This document shows, piece by piece, positions 11,746 to 52,986 of a stretch of DNA of 64,000 bases. Origin of the DNA: Spiroplasma endosymbiont of Atherix ibis (GTDB lineage: Bacteria; Bacillota_I; Bacilli_A; Mycoplasmatales; Mycoplasmataceae); contig NZ_OZ026474.1 in the NCBI RefSeq assembly GCF_964020005.1, positions 496,001 to 560,000 of the forward strand, given 5' to 3'. The notes below the pieces were generated by a model that saw nothing but the letters and a program-made list of their open reading frames with translations, searched no databases and had not been told where the DNA came from. The translations under genes and the position numbers were made by a program. The number at the start of each line of letters is the position of its first letter. The first letter of the stretch is position 1.

Positions 11746-11785
11746 TTGCTTTTTTTTTTTTTTTTATATAATCATTGATATCAAT
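11746..11785 (+). promoter_or_regulatory. Poly-T spacer promoter of lipoprotein 1
   Basis: TTGCTT at 11746 as -35, a run of 16 T (11750-11765), TATAAT at 11767-11772 as -10, then the 12-bp palindrome ATTGATATCAAT. The current spacer is 15 bp, shorter than the 17-bp optimum, so change in the T-run would alter promoter strength. A homologous module lies upstream of the 52191 gene. Confidence 0.65.
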
Positions 11786-11832
11786 TTGAATTGTTTATTT
11801 ACTTTTTAAAGATCTTAAAAAAGGAGGAAAAT

Positions 11833-13611
11833 ATGAAAAAGTTATTAAGTGTATTGGCAACAGTAGGGGTTGTTGCTTCATCAACTATTAGTGTGATTGC
11901 GTGTGGTGCAAAATCTGAGAAGAAACCAGAATAATCTAAAAAAGATATTGCTCAGGTTGTTCGAAATTTTGAAAAGGATGTGACAAAGATATGAACACAA
12001 CATTATGAAAAAGAGGTTGCAAGTAATTTGATTACTGTAGAAGATTTAAAGAATGATTATAAATTTTTAAATAAAGAAAATATTCAGAAATTCTCAAAAT
12101 TAGAGAATAAATTAACAGTTGAACACAAAAAAGAGTTGACTAGTGATGTTGAGAAATTATTTCAAATTAAATTGTTAAAACAGAAGTTAAATGAGTTAAA
12201 AAAGGTTAATTAATATAAAATTATTTTAGATGAGGTGTATTCGGTTTTTGAACATGTTGAGTTGCTTTTTAATGATAATTTTGAAATAAATTCAGGAGAA
12301 GTGGTTGAGGGAATTTATATAGGTAATGTGGTAGTTGATTATAATATTGTGACTAATTATAAAGGACTTAATGATGTTGAGAAATTTAAACAATCAGGAA
12401 CATTGAAGTATACTTCAACAGAAAGTGAGTCGTTTAAAAAAGTAGGAGAGGCAATGTATAAAAATATTGCAAAGGATATGTTTATTTCACAAGAAACACA
12501 AAAGTATGTGAATTTTAAGTGAAGTGATATTAAAGGAGAAAAACAAGATTATGAAGCTTATGTAAATTCAAATGTTCAATTAAAAAAATATTATAATAAT
12601 AGTGAAGATTTTCATCAGGCTTTATTGAAGTTACTTAAAGATAAGTATTTTAAAGTTGCTTTTCCAACATTAGATATTAGTTATAGTAAAAGAAGTATAT
12701 ATAGATCAAATGATTTTTTAGCAGAGAATAAAGAGTATTTGATTATGAACAATTTTGATAAAGAAAATGCTATAAAGTTAAAAGAAGGTCAATATACAGA
12801 AACTATATCAAAAATTCTTTTAGGTGATGAAGGGCTAATAAGAGAAACTTTGAAAGTAGTATTTAATTCAAGAGCTTTGCAGAAAAATAGAGTGAAATAT
12901 AGTTCTGCTCAAGATGAGTTTTTAAATAAATTTTTAAGTTCTGTGGAAGTTGAAAATTATAAGGTAACTGATAGTTACTATGATTTAGCAGTGGCTATGG
13001 GTTATGCTGATTTTGTTGGTCCGGTTATTAGAATTGGAGAAGGACAAAATTCTTATATGCATAAGTTACCTGATTTTAAGTTGGCAATTTCTTATTCAAT
13101 GAATGGAGAAAATGATGAGATTAGTGATAGTTTTATAGATTTATCATTGAAATTATTTGGTATTTATAAACAACTTTGAGCTCCTCAAGTAGCAGATAAT
13201 AAAAAATTTTTATTTAATATGAATTATAAAAAAAGAGATAGTATTTGAAAATATATAGGAAATAATGCAATTGCAGAAGATAAAAGCGTTAAAGAAGTAA
13301 ATAGTATCTTGCAGGATTATCAACAGTTTTATTTTATAGAGCTAGAGAAAAGTTTGAGTTTATTGGATATGACAAGAAATGTTTTTAAAAGTTCTAATAT
13401 TTTATATTTAGTAAATACTGATAAAGCTGATGACTTTATATTTAATAACTTATTATTTAGATCATCTGAAACTAATGGATTCTTTAGATTATATGATAGT
13501 CCAAATTATTTTTTTGCAAATATTAATTATTTGACATTTAGTTTATTTGGAATAGTAGAAATGAATATTTATTTTAAAACTAATTATGATAGTAGTAAGA
13601 TTATATTTTAA
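11833..13611 (+). pseudogene. Surface lipoprotein 1 of a paralogous family, two in-frame TAAs
   Basis: ATG 11833 after an ideal AAGGAGGAAAAT. The leader MKKLLSVLATVGVVASSTIS ends in lipobox VIAC. The frame is open to TAA 13609 (592 aa) except for TAA at 11932 (just after the lipobox) and at 12211. The second replaces a GAA present in lipoprotein 2 (LKKVNEYKII). Members share YIGN(V/F) then NYKG.ND.EK, YTSTES and, with lipoprotein 3, HKLPDFKLAISYSMNG and a hydrophobic C-terminal LFGIVEMNIYF. Function is unknown; surface-exposed and probably antigenic by analogy with mollicute lipoprotein families. IS elements flank it on both sides. Confidence 0.8.
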
Positions 13612-17924: not shown

Positions 17925-20900
17925 ATGAAAAAGAAAAGTAAGATGCTTTTAATAATAAAATCAGGTTTTAAAACAAATATAAAAAATTTAGGACATTTAT
18001 TGGTTTTAAGTTTTTTAGTAACAGTTGCTTTATTTACAGGTATGTCAATATTTGTTGTACAAAATAGAGTCGATAAAAGTTATACTGATTTATTAAATAA
18101 ATCTGTTCAACATGACTTTATAGTTGATGAAGCAAACTCTGCAAGAATTTCTTTTGATGAGCATAATTGAATTGGGGGAGAAGATATTGATAAATTCTCA
18201 AATCAAGATTTATATTCTCAATATTTAATAAATTCTTTATCTAGAAAGGGAATAAAAAACTCACAAGGTGTTGTAACAGGAGATAGTTATTTTAACTGAT
18301 CTAGAACAGAGGGAAGAACTTTTTTAAGTGTCAAGTTAAATAATAAAGATTTAAATATTAAAGCTATAACAAAAACTTCTATTGTAGATGAGAAATTTGA
18401 AGAGACAAAAGAAGAAAAAGTAATGGTAGACAAAATTATTTTAGAAGATGAAACAAAAGATAAATATTTTTCTTCTGATATTAAACTAGCTCCAAGAGAA
18501 GTTATTATTCAATCAAGTTTTGCTAAAAAAATAATATTAAAAGAGGAGATATTATTAGACTTACAAGTGATATTTATGGAAATGAACTATTAGTAAAAAA
18601 TAATATTAATAATTTATCTTTTGGAAATAATGTAAGTATTAATGATTCAAAATTGAGAATTGAAACAAGTGAATATAAAGATCAAGTTTGATTTCAAGTA
18701 ATAGGATTTGGAGCTTAAGCTGATTTTGTCTATCCTGTTACAGAGATTAATTCACTAATTCCTTCTACTAAAAGAAACTTAGTAGTCTATGTTGCTCCTT
18801 CAATTTTTGGTTTAAATAAAGTAAATATTAAATCTGAGCAAGGAAGTAAAATGCAACTTTATCTTTATAATTTTGCAAGCAGTAAATTAAACCCAGAATC
18901 TGAAAAAGATAGAGAAGTCTATTTTTCAGGAAAATTTAAAAGCAAAAGTAATAATTCAGAGTATTATTTAAGAGCTTTTAATCAAGAATGAATTAATTAT
19001 GGAAATTTAAATATTAAAAATGCTAAACTGTTTTATTCTTTAAGAGATGCAGAGTACAAATATTATTTTAGAACTGCAACTTATAGACAAGTAATCTGAG
19101 TTTATTGAATGTTTTCAGCTTTTTTATTAATACTTCTAGTACTAATAAGTTTCTTTATTATTATTTTAATAATTAAAAAACAAATTGAAGAGACAAGAGC
19201 AAAACTTGGAACATTTAAATCTTTGGGATATTCTGACTTTTCACTTTTAATGTTCTTTATATCACCTTCAATAGTTATAAGTTTATTTGGTTTTATCTTT
19301 GCCTATATTCTTACATTGTTACTTCAAAATCAAATTGTAAATTTATTTGCTACATATTTTAATATTCACTTTTTAAAATTTAATCCAGTAATAGGCGAAT
19401 CTATTTTAATATTTACATTTGTATTATTTATAATAATGTCTTTAACTTTATTAATAGCCTATCTTGTTATTAAAGAAAGTGCATTAAAATTATTAGCAGG
19501 TAATCTTGCAAAAACAAATACAAAAGTTGGAAGAGGATTTAAATATCTTTTCAAAAATTCAAATCCAACAATAAAATTACATTCAGCTTTATTGATGAGT
19601 TCAACAGGAAAAATTCTTGCAACTTTTGCAACACTGTTTGTTTCAATAAGTTTAATTTCATCATCTGTAATAGTTCCAATAGTTTTACAAAAAAATAAAA
19701 CTTCAAACTTTACAGGTTTAAATTATAATGATGTAGTTGAATTTAATGAACCAATTTCAAATAATCATTCAACATTTTTAAAAACTTATAATCCTAATAA
19801 AAAAGATAATTGAACTTATAATCAAGAAAACAAAGTAACAGATATTTCAGAAGCTACAAATTCAAAACAAAAGTATATAACATCTTATCCTTTAAAATCG
19901 AATGCTTCTAAAACAGAATATATTTATGATACAGAAAAAATAATTAAAGATTTAATAAGCAATGATATTAGTTCTAATTTTGATTTATACAAAGAAATAG
20001 CGAAGAATAATTATAGTAATTGAAAAAATATGTCTTTAGAATATTTAAAAAAATTAGATGAAGTAACTATTCCTTCTAGAGATACACAAGGAGTTCTTTA
20101 TGATGCAATAGCTTCAATTATTGATCAATGAACTGACTATGCTAACTTAGTTGATGGTGTTGAAAAAATAGCAATAAAATCAATTAAACAAAGTATTGAT
20201 GACAATAAAGAAAATGTTGTAGAGATATCAAAAGAACTTCAAAACTTTTATAAAAAATATGTAAATGCTTTGCCATTAAATATTACTAAAAAATATTTAA
20301 ATGAGAGTCAAAATAAATTAAATGTTGAAGAAATCAAAAAAATTAATTTTGACAATCAATTATTTGAAACTTCAACTAACAGTATTTATTCTGAACAAAA
20401 TGTAAAAACTCCTTTTAAATTAGCTACAAAAGGAAATAATAGATTATTTTATGGATATGATAAAAACTCATCAGATTCAAATGCAAAATGAAACTCAATG
20501 GTTTTAGAATTTGCAGAAAAAAATTTTGAAATGGAAAATAAAAAAGTTTTTTTTAAAGAAAAAGATATTAATTCAATTGATTTAGAAAATGTTAATTGAA
20601 CTGAAGAAGAGTTTAAAACTTTTAATACAAATCTAATTTTATGATATTGAATAAACTTTGAATCTAAAATAGGAACCATGTTAACTGAAGCCACTTATCA
20701 GCAAGCAAATAGTGTTGCTCAACAAAGTATTAAAAAAGCACTATTGGAAGGAACAAATTATAATATTACAACAAATATTGTTCCTTACAATAAACAAATA
20801 GATGAATTGGGAACAATGATAAATGGAACTTATTTTTCAAATAGTAAATTACAAAATATTAAAATTTATGGAATTAATAAAGGTTCAAAAGCAGTAGATC

Positions 20901-23413
20901 TTTTAGATAAAAAAGGAAATGATTTAAGTCAAAATTTATTTAAAAGATTAACAGATGAATATAAACAATATACTCCAATAGTTGTTAATGCAACTATTGC
21001 AGAGAAATTAAATTTAAATGCAAAAGATGTAATAGATATATCAGTTTTAAAAAAAGAATTAGTTGATAAAGAAAATAAAGCAATTAGTTTAGAAAATGTT
21101 AATTGAACTGAAGAAGAGTTTAAAACTTTTAATACAAATCTAATTTTATGATATTGAATAAACTTTGAATCTAAAATAGGAACCATGTTAACTGAAGCCA
21201 CTTATCAGCAAGCAAATAGTGTTGCTCAACAAAGTATTAAAAAAGCACTATTGGAAGGAACAAATTATAATATTACAACAAATATTGTTCCTTACAATAA
21301 ACAAATAGATGAATTGGGAACAATGATAAATGGAACTTATTTTTCAAATAGTAAATTACAAAATATTAAAATTTATGGAATTAATAAAGGTTCAAAAGCA
21401 GTAGATCTTTTAGATAAAAAAGGAAATGATTTAAGTCAAAATTTATTTAAAAGATTAACAGATGAATATAAACAATATACTCCAATAGTTGTTAATGCAA
21501 CTATTGCAGAGAAATTAAATTTAAATGCAAAAGATGTAATAGATATATCAGTTTTAAAAAAAGAATTAGTTGATAAAGAAAATAAAGCAATTAGTTTAGA
21601 AAATGTTAATTGAACTGAAGAAGAGTTTAAAACTTTTAATACAAATCTAATTTTATGATATTGAATAAACTTTGAATCTAAAATAGGAACCATGTTAACT
21701 GAAGCCACTTATCAGCAAGCAAATAGTGTTGCTCAACAAAGTATTAAAAAAGCACTATTGGAAGGAACAAATTATAATATTACAACAAATATTGTTCCTT
21801 ACAATAAACAAATAGATGAATTGGGAACAATGATAAATGGAACTTATTTTTCAAATAGTAAATTACAAAATATTAAAATTTATGGAATTAATAAAGGTTC
21901 AAAAGCAGTAGATCTTTTAGATAAAAAAGGAAATGATTTAAGTCAAAATTTATTTAAAAGATTAACAGATGAATATAAACAATATACTCCAATAGTTGTT
22001 AATGCAACTATTGCAGAGAAATTAAATTTAAATGCAAAAGATGTAATAGATATATCAGTTTTAAAAAAAGAATTAGTTGATAAAGAAAATAAAGCAATTA
22101 GTTTAGAAAATGTTGAAATGGGAATTAAATCAAAATATAATTATGCAACTCAAACTTCAAATGATTATATTTCTGAACATAAAAAAAATTATTTTTCCTA
22201 TAATGATTCAAATAGAAGTTGAGATTCTGAATCGACAATATCAGTGGCTAAAATAAATGGATACAATGTAGCTTCTAATACTTTAGCAGGAATATCTCAA
22301 AAAACAGATATTCAAAAAGCAGCTGATAACTCTGAAATTAAAAAAGCTCAAACAGGAAAAAATCAAAAATTTATTATTGTAGGTATTACTCAAAATTATG
22401 GAGATTCAAAAGCTTGAGTTTCAAATGATAGTGCTAATAAAATTTTAGATTATGATAAAGTTAAAAAATATTTCTTTAATAATTTCTTTTTAAATGAGTG
22501 AAGAGATGGAAAAGCTTTAAAAAATTTCTATGATGAAAGTATTATGGATAAAATTAACAAAAATCAATGAGAAAAATTTGTAAGCTATTATAACAATTTC
22601 TTATTGGTTAAATGAACAAGTGAAGAGAGTGACAAATTTATTACTGGAGCAGATAATCCTTATGATGAATACATTAATATGTTTTTAAAATTATCAGATT
22701 ATTATGATAATCCAAATGGATTTAAGTATGCTTCAAAATATTTGTGACAGTTATTTGAAAATGAATATCCAATATTTAATTACAAATATTCAATAAAAGA
22801 TGATTATAAAGATCAAATTATAAATACTTCTAGAACTCAACCATTTGGTGATTATGGAACAGTTGGTATGATGGGTAAATCTAATTTAGAAACTGATGAA
22901 ACTGGAACTTCTAAAATAACTTATATTCAAGGTTATGGTGAAAATGGATTAAAAAAACTTGATTCATTGAAATTTAAAAGACAATTACTAGATCAAGTTC
23001 AAGCAATTATAGGAGTCATAATTTATTTAGTAACAGTAATTGCTTTAATTATTTCAATTTCTATAATTATTATAACTACTGTGTTAATTATTGGAGAAAA
23101 TACTCAATTTATTGCTACAATGAAAATTTTGGGATACTCTGATAAATATATTATGTGTCAGATTATAAGTATCTATATACTGCCAATTTTTGTAATGTTT
23201 ATATTTGGATTTATTACAGCGTGATTTGCAATAGGGAGAGTAATGAAATATATTTCTTCTAATTATTCATTTGCAATTCATTATCAATTTTTAGGATGAG
23301 ATCCTTTTGCTGTTTTCTCAATTCTAATAGTGATGTATTTAATAACTATATTAATTTCATATAAACAATTTTCAAAAATAATAGCAGTTGATTCGTTGGC
23401 AATTAGCAGTTAG
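17925..23413 (+). pseudogene. Giant FtsX/MacB-like ABC permease with frameshift, TAA and internal triplication
   Basis: ATG 17925. One N-terminal helix (about residues 22-45), a large outside domain, a core of three helices (from MFSAFLLILLVLISFF, about nt 19109; motif LGTFKSLGYSDFSL), a further helix at about 19610, a very large outside domain, then three C-terminal helices with MKILGYSDKYIM. The doubled K.LGYS motif marks two FtsX-type halves. Type VII-like permeases transmit force across the membrane rather than transporting ions. Defects: loss of one A in the A7 run 18525-18531 (restoring A8 gives FAKKNNIKRGDIIRLTSDI), and TAA at 18716. Three exact 169-codon copies lie at 20581-22101. The ATPase is not adjacent. 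Confidence 0.8.
20581..22114 (+). repeat. Exact 507-bp tandem triplication inside the permease gene
   Basis: Copies 20581-21087, 21088-21594 and 21595-22101 look identical base for base and keep frame (507 = 169 x 3). Each begins with the 13-bp TTTAGAAAATGTT, which also follows the last copy (22102-22114), so slippage or unequal crossing-over between this microhomology would produce the array. The unit encodes part of the large extracellular domain (LENVNWTEEEFK to KENKAIS). Confidence 0.95.
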
Positions 23414-29255: not shown

Positions 29256-29708
29256 ATGAGTAGAAAAATAGTAGATAATTTATATTTGGGAGATATGCAT
29301 TCAGTTCCAAAAGATTCTGATTTAATTTTAAGTTGTGCTCAAGAGATTTTTCAAGATCAAAGTCCAAAAAAAGGTTTAAATAAGCTTATACAAAATGAAA
29401 AAAAGAGAATACTATATAATTTTGAAGATTATCCATATTTAGAAGATATGGATAAAAATTTAATACTTGATGCAATTCAACAAATTGAAACTAATATTAA
29501 AGATAAAAAAATTTATGTTCATTGTATTTGAGGAGTTAATAGAAGTGCAAGTATAGTATTTATGTATTTAGTTAGAAATAATATAATAAAAGCAGATAAT
29601 TATGAACAAGCACAAAAGGAATATTGAAAAATATATCCTAATCATTCACCAAATCCAGGATGAAAAATCTTTTTAAAATTAAATTTTCCATATAATTTTG
29701 AAAACTAG
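29256..29708 (+). CDS. Dual-specificity protein phosphatase
   Basis: 150 aa. ATG 29256 with AAAAGGAGAT; an upstream ATG at 29217 belongs to the preceding remnant. Contains the phosphatase signature VHCIWGVNRSAS (HCx5RS; Cys 90 nucleophile, Arg 96) and a general-acid region in YNFEDYPYLED. The N-terminal NLYLGDMHSV is typical of compact DSP/VHR-like enzymes. It would dephosphorylate Ser/Thr/Tyr residues or another phospho-substrate in the cytosol. Monocistronic and intact. Such enzymes are infrequent in minimal genomes and may counter a Ser/Thr kinase elsewhere. Confidence 0.85.
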
Positions 29709-30105
29709 TATTTTAAAATTAAAGTTTTAAAACAAGGAAGTCAAAAATAATATATTAATTAAGCACTATAATAATTTGAATTAATTCGAGAATAAATAAA
29801 ATATTAGTTTAATTTAAAAAATATAAGAGAGTTTCTAAAGTTTAAAGAATTTAATAAATTTAAATAGTATTAAATATACCAAAAAAAAAAAAAAACTAAT
29901 TTTTTCAAAACTTAAAAGAAATATAAAAAAATAAAAACAATTTTATGTTAGCATATTATCATTGATTATTTTTATTAATAATTGATAATAATATTTGTAA
30001 GAAGTTGTAAATTAACTTACGAAGATAATAAAAATGTAATTTTAGAAAATAGGGAATAAAAAAAATAGTTAATTAAAGGTATTGATTTTATTAACTTATA
30101 TTAAA
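29709..30105. other. Non-coding, no gene seen
   Basis: AT-rich gap with a 15-A tract (29881-29895). No frame of useful length. TATAAA near 30107 may be the -10 of the structured RNA that follows. Confidence 0.4.
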
Positions 30106-30114
30106 TATAAAATC

Positions 30115-30305
30115 TCCAAGTTTCCAGTTACTTTTAAAAAGTAAAGGGTGTAAGGGTGGGATCAGGAAACTTACAAGTTAATGCTACTTGTAAAAGAGCT
30201 TTGAAAAAAGCAAATAAGTACCTAGAACAATTCAAGTTGTTAAATTTAAAATTATTTTACCCTTAAATAGTTTTAGTCCAGAGTTATATCTCTGGACTTT
30301 TTTTA
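30115..30305 (+). ncRNA. Structured small RNA, unidentified
   Basis: Stem 1: AAGTTTCC (30118-30125) with GGAAACTT (30165-30172), enclosing TACTTT/AAAGTA. Stem 2: TTACAAGT (30171-30178) with ACTTGTAA (30186-30193). Stem 3: GCTTT-GAAA-AAAGC (30199-30212). Then a strong terminator, AGTCCAGAG (30275-30283) with CTCTGGACT (30290-30298) plus T8. Locally less AT-rich (GGGTGTAAGGGTGGGATC) and with no ORF. It does not match the landmarks I know for RNase P RNA, tmRNA, SRP RNA or common riboswitches. It could be a stand-alone sRNA or a cis-regulator of the 30377 gene. Confidence 0.55.
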
Positions 30306-30306
30306 T
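30275..30306 (+). terminator. Terminator of the small RNA
   Basis: 9-bp perfect stem with a 6-nt loop and a T-run. Confidence 0.85.
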
Positions 30307-30376
30307 TCTCGTGTTGTTTTAAAGTGTTATACTTTTAAAGGTTATATATAGTTATTTAAATAATTAATGAGAAATT

Positions 30377-30900
30377 ATGATTAGAGTTTCAAAAACATGA
30401 TCAAATGTGAGTGTATATTTATTATTAATAAATTTAATATCAATTATGGTATTAGGTATTTTTATGATTTCATTAAAATCATTAATGTTAAAAGGATATA
30501 AATCTTTAAGAGAACTAGGTACATGATTACAACAAATAAGTTAATCTAGCTTAGATACTATTAATAAATTTGGTTGAAAAGTTGTAAAAGTTTTTTTAAT
30601 ATTTTATATTATTTTAATTCTTAACTTAATTTTAATTAATTCAAGAAGAGGAATTATACAAAGAATTGGTTATACATTTGGATTAGTAATTGGTTTTTGT
30701 TTATTTTTTCTAGCACTCTTACCATTAACGCTTAGAAGTTCTATTAAAATTGATAAGTTTTTTATTGACTTAGTACTTGGATTATTATTAGCAACTGTGG
30801 AATTAATTTTGTAAAACGAAATTTAAAATTAGCTAAAATTCCTATTTTGGATTCTAAAAAATCTTCATATAATGAACTAATTAGAAAATTAATACATTAA
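30377..30900 (+). pseudogene. Membrane protein, TAA and frameshift
   Basis: ATG 30377 with AATGAGA upstream. Hydrophobic helices at residues about 13-38, 75-90 and 100-118. TAA at 30542 lies after WLQQIS and fits Gln. The frame ends at 30812, but another frame continues convincingly (GINFVKRNLKLAKIPILDSK) to TAA 30898, implying an indel near 30785-30800. Small polytopic membrane protein, family unknown. Confidence 0.6.
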
Positions 30901-30914
30901 ATTTTTAAAATCTA

Positions 30915-31085
30915 TTAAACTGCAAACTTGGCCTCCAAGTTCTTTTTGAGCTAGTATTTATGCTAGCACAAAAATTGCGAATGCTAGCATTTTTTTTGGT
31001 AAAAAACCCTTTAATAAAGGGTTTTCCAAAAAAAGTGATAGTATTCCTTATCCTGTTACCAAAAACTTCATTTTTCGGTAAAAAA
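30915..31085. other. Cluster of stable hairpins, non-coding
   Basis: Successive inverted repeats: AACTTGG/CCAAGTT (about 30925), GCTAG-TATTTAT-GCTAGC region, AATGCTAGCATT palindrome with T8, AAAAACCCTTT/AAAGGGTTTT, and TACCGAA-type repeats around 31060-31080. Richer in G+C than neighbours. Resembles a phage or plasmid intergenic region or a terminator array; no ORF. Confidence 0.45.
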
Positions 31086-31259
31086 AGAAATTTATTTAGT
31101 TTTTTTAAATTATTTATGTTAATATTTTTGTAAAATAAAAAACTCGAAATTTGCAGTTTTTAAATATTTACTTGAATATGGTTTAAATTTGATTAATTCA
31201 AATTAATTAATATGGCCATCACCCCCTTAATATTTCCCACAACTTTTATATACTTAAAC

Positions 31260-31290
31260 TTGATTTTTTTTTTTTTTTATATACAATTAT
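31260..31290 (+). promoter_or_regulatory. Poly-T spacer promoter of lipoprotein 2
   Basis: TTGATT (31260-31265) as -35, 15 T (31264-31278), TATACAAT at 31280 as -10. Downstream TAATTTGAATTGTTTATTTA is shared with the lipoprotein 1 promoter region. Confidence 0.6.
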
Positions 31291-31347
31291 ATAGTAATTT
31301 GAATTGTTTATTTATTTTATAAAATTTTTTAGAAAGATGAAGAAAAT

Positions 31348-33207
31348 ATGAAAAACTTATTAAGTGTATTGGCAACACTAGGTTTTGTTGCTTCAACAAC
31401 TACAAGTCTAGTTGCATGTGTTACAAAACCTAATTCAAAACCAATAGAACCAACAAAAGATATTACTCAAATAGTTAAGGAATTTCAAAAAGATGTAGAG
31501 AAAATTTATAGTGAACATATTAAAAATGAAGTTCTACAAAATCTTATTGGTTTGGAAGAAAATGAGAAAAATTATTTATTTATTAAAAAAGATAATATTT
31601 TAAAATTTTCTAATAAAGAAGCTAATATAACTCAAAAAAATAAAAATGAAATCAATAATGATGAAAGTAAAATTTTAAAATTTGATTTATTAAAACAGAA
31701 ATTAAATGAGTTAAAAAAAGTTAATGAATATAAAATTATTTTAGATGAAGTTGAATCAGTTTATGATGGATTTCAAACTATATTTGATAATAATTTTAAA
31801 ATAAGATCTGGAGTAATAAATACACATGCTTACATTGGAAATTTTATTAATGATTATAAAATAACTGTAAATTATAAAGGCATTAATGATATAGAAAAAT
31901 ATGAAATTAAAGATACATTCAAATATACTTCAACAGAAAGTAAAACTTTTAAAGTATCTTTAGATAATTTAATTAAAAATATTGAAAAAGATATTTTATT
32001 ATCAGATGAAATGAAAGAATTTTCAAATATAGAATGAAAACAAGTTAAAAAAGAGCAAGAACAAATATATATGGGATACTCAGATTTAATTACTAGACAT
32101 GAGTATGGAGATAAATTTTATAATCAAAGTAAAAATAAGCTTAAAATAGTTAATTTTATTAAAAATAATTATTTTAAAGATTTTTTAAATCTAAATATGG
32201 ATTTTTCTAAAAATAAAAGTTTAGAAGTTTCAACAAAAAGAAAAGTTACTTTAGCTAAAATATTTGAACTAAAAGATGCAACTAAGTTTACTACTTTTAA
32301 TAATATTTCAAGTTCAGAAAAAATTTTTAACACTATTTTTAGAATAAGTTCAGAAAATGAAGAAAGTAAAAGAACATTAAAAAATTTGTATTTTAATGAT
32401 AAAAATATAGATCAATGAAATAAAGAATTTTTATTATTTAAAGATAATTATCTAAAAACTAGAAAATTTACAAAATATCAATTAGAAAAAATTAATCAAT
32501 CTAGTGCCTATATTGAAGCAGATGCTATTTTTGAAGTTAATGTTAAAAATCTTTCTATTATAATAGGTAGTGGAGAAAATGAATATAAACATGAATTACC
32601 AAGTTTTAATTTTTTATTTACATATATTGTTACATCAAATTTACAAAAAAAATATGATTTAATTAATGACTATACTTTAAAAGAATTAATTAGTAATTTT
32701 CACAAAGTTTATGGCATAGATAAAAAATATAAATATCCAGATTTTAATTCTGATGATAATTATTTAATGAATATTGGAAATAAAGAAATAATAGAAAGTA
32801 TAAAAAAGAATAAATTTAAAAGTTCTGATAGTGGAGCTGTTTCACATATGTTTCATCGTTTTGTAAATGATCAAATAGAAAATACAAAAGCTAAAAAAAT
32901 ATTTGAGCAATCTAAGTTATGAAATACAATAGATAAGATTAATGATAATTTTTATATATTTGATAATTCTATTAATAATTTTTTTAATTATAAAAATTCA
33001 AGTAATAATGGAATAAAAAATAATATACTAGATTATAAATTAGAAAGTGATGGGCTAAAGTTAATACCTGCAATTAGTGGAAGCAAAAGTAGAGAGTCAG
33101 ATTCTATTACATTTAAATTGGGATATTTAGCAGTTAATTTTAATTATGAGAAATTATTTAAGTTAAAAGAAGAGCAAAAAACAAAAATATTTTTTAAATT
33201 TATTTAA
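31348..33207 (+). CDS. Surface lipoprotein 2, intact paralogue
   Basis: 619 aa, no internal stop: the only fully open member of this family here. Leader MKKLLSVLATLGFVAST-like (MKNLLSVLATLGFVASTTTS) with lipobox LVAC. The N-terminal third aligns with lipoproteins 1 and 3 (DITQIVKEFQKDVEKIY, LKQKLNELKKVNEYKIILDE, YTSTES); the middle diverges, and YKHELPSFNFLFTYIV replaces HKLPDFKLAISY. The Shine-Dalgarno is degraded (GATGAAGAAAAT instead of AAGGAGGAAAAT). Presumed surface antigen. IS-A and IS-B relics follow directly. Confidence 0.85.
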
Positions 33208-52100: not shown

Positions 52101-52146
52101 TTTTTCCGTTTTTTTTTTTTTTTTATAGAATGATTGATATCAATTT
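52101..52146 (+). promoter_or_regulatory. Poly-T spacer promoter of the 52191 membrane gene
   Basis: 16 T (52109-52124), -10 TATAGA/TAGAAT right after it, then the palindrome ATTGATATCAAT and TTGAATT as upstream of lipoprotein 1. The -35 side is now IS-B-proximal sequence (TTTTCC), so the promoter may be weakened. Confidence 0.6.
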
Positions 52147-52190
52147 GAATTATATATTTGTTTTATAAGGGTCTTTAAAAAGGAAAAAAA

Positions 52191-52986
52191 ATGAAAGAAA
52201 AAGTATTATATAAAAATTGACTTTGATATAGTCATCTTGTTTTAGCAGTAGTTTTTTTAGGTTTCTTAATTTGAGGTCTTTATTTGTGTGCTTTTAAAGA
52301 ATTTTGATATATAGATAATTGATCATCTACAACATATTCACTAAAATATTTTACAAATTTTGATATATTAATGAGTTTTTTTTCAGTTCAAGTAAATACA
52401 ATGACAATAGTTTGATTAATCTTTTATGTATTAAATTTTAATAAAAGAAATTATGGTGTTACAAGCACAAGATTTAGAATTACTATTATGAATTTAAATT
52501 TAATTGTATTTATTATTTTTTGAGTTGGAATTATTTATTTTTTTCTCAATTGATCCTAATGAATTGAGCAGATATACAAAAGGACAAATTACCTGTACGA
52601 TAATTACTAATTTTATTGCTCCTTTAACTTTAATTGCTCTATATTGATTTACTATTGGAAAAGAAAAATATAATTATTTAGATTTATGAAAAAGATGAGA
52701 TTTTTGAATAACTATTTTATATTCATTTTTATATATGATTTATATTTATGTAAGAGGAACTATGTATGAAAAAGATTACTTTTTTGCACCTGCATGACCA
52801 TATCAATTTTTAAATTTTAGTAATTTATTTGTTGGAAAATCAGTTGCAGGTTATATGTTGCTGTTGACTTTTATATTTATTATTTGAATTATTTGTCATC
52901 ATTTACTTTTAATTTTTATAAATAATTTAGCTTATAAAAATAAAATTGCTAAAGTAAATAAAATTGATTCTATAAAAGTTAAGTAA
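52191..52986 (+). pseudogene. Polytopic membrane protein, frameshifted in a T7 run
   Basis: ATG 52191 after AAAAAGGAAA. About seven helices over 264 residues: HLVLAVVFLGFLIWGLYLCA, MTIVWLIFYVL, LIVFIIFWVGIIYFF, later ITILYSFLYMIYIYV and MLLLTFIFIIWIICHHLLLI. The frame shifts by one base at the T7 run 52538-52544; with T6 it reads on as FSIDPNELSRYTKGQIT to TAA 52984. Trp-rich; resembles the MAGa/DUF-type integral membrane proteins of Entomoplasmatales, family not certain. Could be phase-variable by slippage or simply an indel error. Confidence 0.7.

Follow-up and report, generated by a model that had tools for sequence, protein, structure and literature searches.

The stretch of DNA considered here, a 64,000-nucleotide segment from a Spiroplasma endosymbiont that is referred to throughout as the window, carries at 30118-30305 on the forward strand a compact, stand-alone non-coding gene that ends in its own terminator. 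An internal segment of the RNA, the guide, is complementary to messenger RNAs encoded elsewhere to an extent that exceeds chance, in a set of leaders that are paralogous to one another. As the complementarity falls at the starts of many surface-lipoprotein messengers, the RNA probably controls the proteins of the cell surface, and with a probability of roughly two in three we consider it to be a trans-acting, base-pairing small RNA that controls a lipoprotein family. It is best read as a new small RNA family of a known kind. The conserved RNA and some 30 lipoprotein-type leaders in two species represent a pair that is directly testable; were the reading true, a small RNA would be tied to the spiroplasma surface coat, acting atop promoters that look phase-variable, and a new RNA family would be added.

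The preliminary description of this DNA had placed a structured RNA with its own terminator at 30115-30306, and this is borne out with the extent refined to about 30118-30305. The gene and its parts are as follows.

30118-30305, plus strand: RNA gene, from alignments, fold and terminator, with both ends estimated
30075-30117, plus strand: presumed promoter, a conserved block ahead of the gene that has TTGATT- and TATAAA-like elements
30118-30125, plus strand: 5' strand of P1, from hand-chosen arms whose pairing is kept in all 11 copies despite sequence changes
30128-30144, plus strand: P2 hairpin, variable in sequence with compensatory changes
30151-30162, plus strand: G-rich core, predicted from energies as the 5' strand of a possible P6
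30165-30172, plus strand: 3' strand of P1, from the same hand-chosen arms
30171-30193, plus strand: P3 hairpin, nearly invariant, overlapping P1 by two bases
30184-30245, plus strand: guide, made up of P4 (30198-30211), a linker and P5 (30226-30241), antisense to lipoprotein-type leaders
30254-30265, plus strand: 3' strand of the possible P6, predicted from energies
30275-30305, plus strand: intrinsic terminator, its stem with compensatory changes

The region 30109-30306 folds on the plus strand with an energy of -47.7 kcal/mol (z -3.45), a value equalled by one of 200 shuffled sequences, while the minus strand of the RNA region gives z -2.77 (two of 200). Without the terminator the fold signal, taken over 30118-30275, is weaker (z -2.03; six of 200 as good). 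The terminator stands out at 30275-30298, with two terminator-like sites detected over 29700-31400 against 0.2 expected. The structure consists of the stems P1 to P5, a possible long-range pairing, P6, and the strong terminator; the stems and terminator recognised earlier are recovered, with the closing stem P1 and the possible P6 added to them. Changes on both sides of a pair are seen in at least one sequence for 10 of the 53 RNAalifold pairs, seven in P2 and three in the terminator stem, and P3, P4 and P5 are nearly invariant across the aligned copies. P1 lies outside the RNAalifold structure and its arms were picked by hand, such that their consistent pairing represents support rather than a blind test. 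P6 displays no covariation, includes three G-U pairs and loses two pairs in one relative (G005) and one each in G002 and G009; in combination with P1 it would form a possible pseudoknot. A G-quadruplex within the G-rich core was set aside, a fourth G run being missing from a second copy of the RNA found in G005.

The gene is present as a single copy in the window's genome (G000). Its relatives differ by single-nucleotide insertions and deletions within an otherwise near-invariant sequence, which shift the frames in the alignments, and as some of these changes fall between P3 and P4 one conserved reading frame is excluded. A coding gene was therefore rejected: a frame of 21-29 codons (code 4) is open by eye in some relatives and is broken by one-nucleotide indels in others. 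The preliminary description had also called the RNA less AT-rich than its surroundings, which holds mainly for the upstream flank, where three windows covering 29700-30079 have a G+C content of 0.11-0.14 against 0.25 over 30080-30269; downstream, the values of 0.17-0.26 overlap with that of the RNA. The upstream block at 30075-30117 is kept in nine of ten aligned sequences and is weaker in G005. A simple consensus scan of 29700-31400 lists no promoter site in this block, and for that reason the promoter of the RNA is described as presumed. On the 3' side of the RNA, the membrane-protein gene at 30377-30905 is interrupted, with its relative in the sister genome (G019) being an intact open reading frame of 182 amino acids. 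Further along, at 30925-31025, between the interrupted gene and a lipoprotein gene, there are hairpin-like sequences followed by T runs, one of which is listed as a terminator.

To which family does such an RNA belong? A covariance-model search against Rfam 15, as had been suggested, gives no family at gathering score anywhere in the 64-kb window, and a relaxed search returns four matches (E 0.31-1.5), all of which include the terminator hairpin. The absence of an Rfam match, together with the strong conservation described below, supports the original view of a structured RNA that is unassigned. A tmRNA or tRNA was rejected as ARAGORN detects no tRNA-like domain, reporting no tRNA or tmRNA gene in the whole window, and a Cas9 tracrRNA was rejected because cas9 is missing from the window's genome. 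Within the genus cas9 is found in nine of 20 genomes, comprising two of the ten that carry the RNA and seven of the ten that do not. The sequence AGGGUGGGAUC has what we take to be a likeness to the T-box motif; despite this, the T-box family is not reported by cmscan up to E 5, and a riboswitch or T-box leader is further disfavoured by the absence of a constant regulated gene family downstream across the subclades.

The conservation of the RNA in relatives, which had been proposed as a check, is strong. By BLASTN at E 1e-5 it is found in ten of the 20 genomes of the genus, at one place in each, and a covariance model of the RNA core, R1, identifies the same ten genomes and no other among 320 in the order, in a search that scored ten candidates per genome and can thus miss diverged copies. 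A relaxed search of 37 genomes with up to 92 candidates each gives nothing new better than E 0.74, with the second G005 copy scoring E 6.4. Two sequence patterns searched for in genome_contigs and viral_contigs gave no match, though these collections may omit records close to this genome. In a YqeH tree the ten RNA-bearing genomes form one side of a branch with support of 98/96. The RNA core shares 96-99% DNA identity with the window in eight relatives and 85% in G005; for the YqeH protein, identity of the window to these nine RNA-bearing relatives is 70-85%. In all ten genomes the RNA is found downstream of a gene of the same strand whose motif suggests a dual-specificity phosphatase, and the next genes differ between subclades. 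The phosphatase gene is also present in the ten RNA-free genomes, where a filterless cmsearch of the ten phosphatase loci for diverged homologues gave a best E of 0.17, judged to be chance.

One genome, G005, has a second copy of the RNA in tandem, which has diverged strongly (L017 1890-2105). This copy still has P1 and P2, a G-rich core, a terminator and the invariant UUACCCUUAAAUAGUUUUA, and the P4-P5 sequence is gone. Such a pattern suggests, from sequence, an RNA composed of a scaffold with a changeable guide, and may equally reflect decay. When the guide region of the second copy was compared with five G005 leaders, 0 of 100 shuffles did as well for one leader and 17-35 of 100 for the other four, which is not convincing.

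A genome search with the RNA gave two 24-nt matches of 96% identity that lie antisense within the leaders of lipoprotein-like genes. The antisense pattern, TTGAATTGTN{0,12}TTATTTG, occurs at five places in the window's genome, at 16 in the sister genome and at 12 in ten other genomes (seven of the 12 being the RNA itself), with the reversed control pattern having one place in 20 genomes. The five places in the window's genome correspond to three lipoprotein-type leaders, the RNA itself and one other site. In the sister genome the RNA and one other site leave 14, of which 11 were read, all of them lying before an MKKLLS/MKKILS-type start; by eye one of these starts is GTG, and one frame departs from the lipoprotein after a few codons. 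Within the leaders the parts are ordered as the complement of P5, then of the linker, then of P4, which points to a true antisense match rather than a by-product of the palindromic stems. Inspection of 24 other matches revealed nine copies of a transposase gene and several isolated coding sites, and most of 20 weaker matches in other genomes are in or beside unrelated genes, with G010:304735 being a lipoprotein leader. In the window itself the leader motif, with up to three mismatches allowed, has three occurrences against 0.20 expected:

11782-11801, plus strand: leader complementary to the guide (L289), before an MKKLLS lipoprotein-like gene at 11833
31295-31314, plus strand: guide-complementary leader of the lipoprotein-like gene 31348-33207, outside the set of 80 leaders described below
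52141-52160, plus strand: guide-complementary leader of the membrane-protein-like gene 52191-52559

The lipoprotein-like gene at 11833-12300 holds two in-frame stops under code 4.

The specificity of the pairing was assessed with 80 leaders from 14 of the 20 genomes, chosen by a GGAG site before an MKKLLS/MKKILS-type start, the term lipoprotein being based here on how the protein begins, with not all of the 80 read further. A leader passed when no more than one of 150 shuffled guides paired as well, the window guide being used for all leaders. Passes were recorded for 13 of 14 leaders in the window's genome and 14 of 18 in G019, where three more lie at 2-4/150, for one of four in G010 and one of six in G004, and for none in G001 (0/5), G005 (0/5) and G009 (0/1). 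No leader passed in the RNA-free genomes (G014 0/10, G003 0/8, G008 0/5, G016 0/4), the best being 3/150. With the genome's own guide and new shuffles the outcome is 13/14 in the window's genome, 15/18 in G019, 1/4 in G010, 2/6 in G004 and 0/11 for G001, G005 and G009 together. The lipoprotein gene pattern identifies no such gene in G007, G017 and G002. These significance values are not independent because the leaders are paralogous, with 32 of the 42 leaders of four genomes linking at 65% identity. Seven further species have a guide that has hardly changed (81% in G005), yet few leaders match there, which weighs against the proposal.

Leaders of other genes behave differently. Among 118 from the window and nine RNA-bearing loci, a gene list that omits the window genes at 11833 and 31348, three beat all 100 shuffles, namely two lipoproteins of G019 and the window gene at 52191, and at the RNA-free loci none of 94 did so. 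In G009 and G007 a membrane-protein gene close to the RNA was considered as a target and rejected, its leaders being beaten by one or two of 100 shuffles, which is background (four of the 94 at two or fewer). Sliding windows of 20 nt locate the pairing effect in 30184-30245. For the comparisons that follow, the 30 target leaders come from G000 and G019 and leave out the non-pairing L285 and L301. The longest exact complementary run has a median of 10 nt in these targets, against 6 in 21 further leaders from RNA-bearing genomes and 7 in 27 RNA-free leaders, among which the longest such run is 12. When intramolecular folding is counted, the mean binding energy is -13.6 kcal/mol for the 30 leaders versus -4.6 for the 27 controls, in distributions that overlap (weakest target -4.2, best control -10.1).

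In the mechanism proposed, the RNA would be transcribed from its own gene, with P1, P2, the G-rich core and the terminator forming an outer scaffold and P4-linker-P5 (30184-30245) serving as the guide. The guide would form a duplex in the cell with the short 5' leaders of surface-lipoprotein messengers, along most of their length as far as the Shine-Dalgarno sequence, and P4 and P5 would have to open before this pairing. Folding is predicted to mask the Shine-Dalgarno partly in many leaders; with the guide bound it would be released and translation activated, perhaps with protection of the messenger 5' end as well. In 32 leaders (the 30 with one each from G010 and G004) the pairing site begins somewhere from -58 to -45; the duplex ends upstream of the Shine-Dalgarno in 29 of these and includes it in the other three. 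Accessibility of the Shine-Dalgarno is 0.32 in the 30 targets versus 0.52 in the 27 RNA-free controls (Mann-Whitney p 0.003), with 0.46 in 19 other leaders of RNA-bearing genomes. Blocking -55 to -15 raises it to 0.90 in the targets, with the controls rising too, to 0.77 (RNA-free) and 0.81 (other RNA-bearing). Activation is favoured over repression since a hidden Shine-Dalgarno would be freed by occupation of the site, and these modelled accessibilities support it modestly.

The promoters of the target leaders display a layout of their own, in which 13-15 T separate a TTGACT-like -35 from a TATAAT-like -10 element in 27 of the 30. By genome this layout is found in 12/14 leaders of G000, 15/18 of G019, 2/6 of G004, 1/4 of G010 and 0/27 of the RNA-free genomes. 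In the window it is seen as follows.

About 11747-11833: T-run promoter, upstream of a lipoprotein-type gene
About 31260-31348: T-run promoter, upstream of a lipoprotein-type gene

The arrangement suggests phase variation by slippage and a leader that would start near the pairing site. On this basis the RNA may tentatively, and with considerable doubt, be pictured as a master post-transcriptional switch over a phase-variable lipoprotein family, built from a modular scaffold and an exchangeable guide. Each gene would flicker alone at the level of transcription, and the RNA would decide, via the Shine-Dalgarno, on the translation of those leaders that are switched on.

Three other explanations have to be weighed against regulation in trans. 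An unlikely one is that the RNA is structural or binds a protein, for example by sequestering or scaffolding it, with the resemblance to the leaders being secondary. The G-rich core and UUACCCUUAAAUAGUUUUA do rank with the best-conserved parts, persisting even in the diverged G005 copy, and the guide is kept in species where no matching leaders are known, but such a role leaves unexplained why the antisense matches are concentrated in lipoprotein leaders and involve the P4-P5 segment only. Shared ancestry without function would have the leader family derived from an inverted copy of a piece of the RNA gene, or the RNA gene from the leaders, with the complementarity left over from that origin. 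It would fit with the leaders being a single family of paralogues found mostly in two sister genomes. It is nevertheless very unlikely, as leaders that are unlike each other (for example L280 in G010, and L288 and L302 in G000 and G019) pair with different parts of the guide and match linker bases that are missing from the common leader type, and as the guide stays nearly invariant across species.

Equally improbable is action in cis, with the RNA as a leader (riboswitch or attenuator) that governs the following gene through its terminator. A protein gene follows the RNA on the same strand in ten of ten genomes and starts 104-238 nt past the 3' core in nine of them; in G005 only the second copy has a gene within about 230 nt, and this is an interrupted frame. 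However, nearly all genes after the RNA share its strand anyway, the downstream genes belong to different families in different subclades, and no antiterminator is seen by eye.

Regulation in trans by base pairing has parallels in well-studied bacteria. In Gram-positive organisms FasX (ska), VR-RNA (colA) and RNAIII (hla) are small RNAs that pair near the 5' end of a messenger and activate or stabilise it. The present RNA is similar in being structured and antisense to a 5' leader, where a hidden ribosome site could be freed, and differs in that one predicted guide matches a whole paralogous lipoprotein family; we know of no sequence kinship between it and these three. The enterobacterial envelope RNAs MicA and RybB repress many surface-protein messengers through a short seed and with Hfq. 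Here too one RNA has many candidate surface-protein targets with pairing near the ribosome site, but the guide is long and internal, and activation is the likelier sign. Within the Mollicutes, Mycoplasma capricolum has the MCS series of small RNAs, some of unclear function, and the preliminary description had guessed at a kinship with them. Both are small Mollicutes RNAs, but the guess finds no support, as R1, with ten candidates scored per genome, matches ten of 320 genomes of the order, all of them in one genus.

RNA regulation in the Mollicutes is otherwise little understood, and full-text literature searches brought up no regulatory RNA of Spiroplasma that has a set of targets, or lipoproteins among them. 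For M. hyopneumoniae, M. flocculare and M. hyorhinis, trans-encoded small RNAs have been predicted with computed targets that include some lipoproteins and, for two of the RNAs, interaction energies of about -10 kcal/mol; the accessible part of that report does not mention Spiroplasma (PMC5088518). The likeness lies in a predicted Mollicutes small RNA with lipoproteins among its computed targets, and the difference in the repeated leader target described here, of which none is seen in the accessible part for those RNAs. In RNA-seq of S. diminutum and S. taiwanense, with calls made from intergenic reads at a coverage cut-off of 400, only tmRNA and rnpB are named as highly expressed non-coding RNAs in the accessible text (PMC5726471). 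That the present RNA is unnamed there counts against the proposal, though it may reflect weak expression, loss during library preparation or the cut-off.

Finally, elsewhere in the window, a large permease-like open reading frame at 18851-23413 contains a segment beginning ENVNWTEEEFKTFNTN three times in tandem, almost unchanged.
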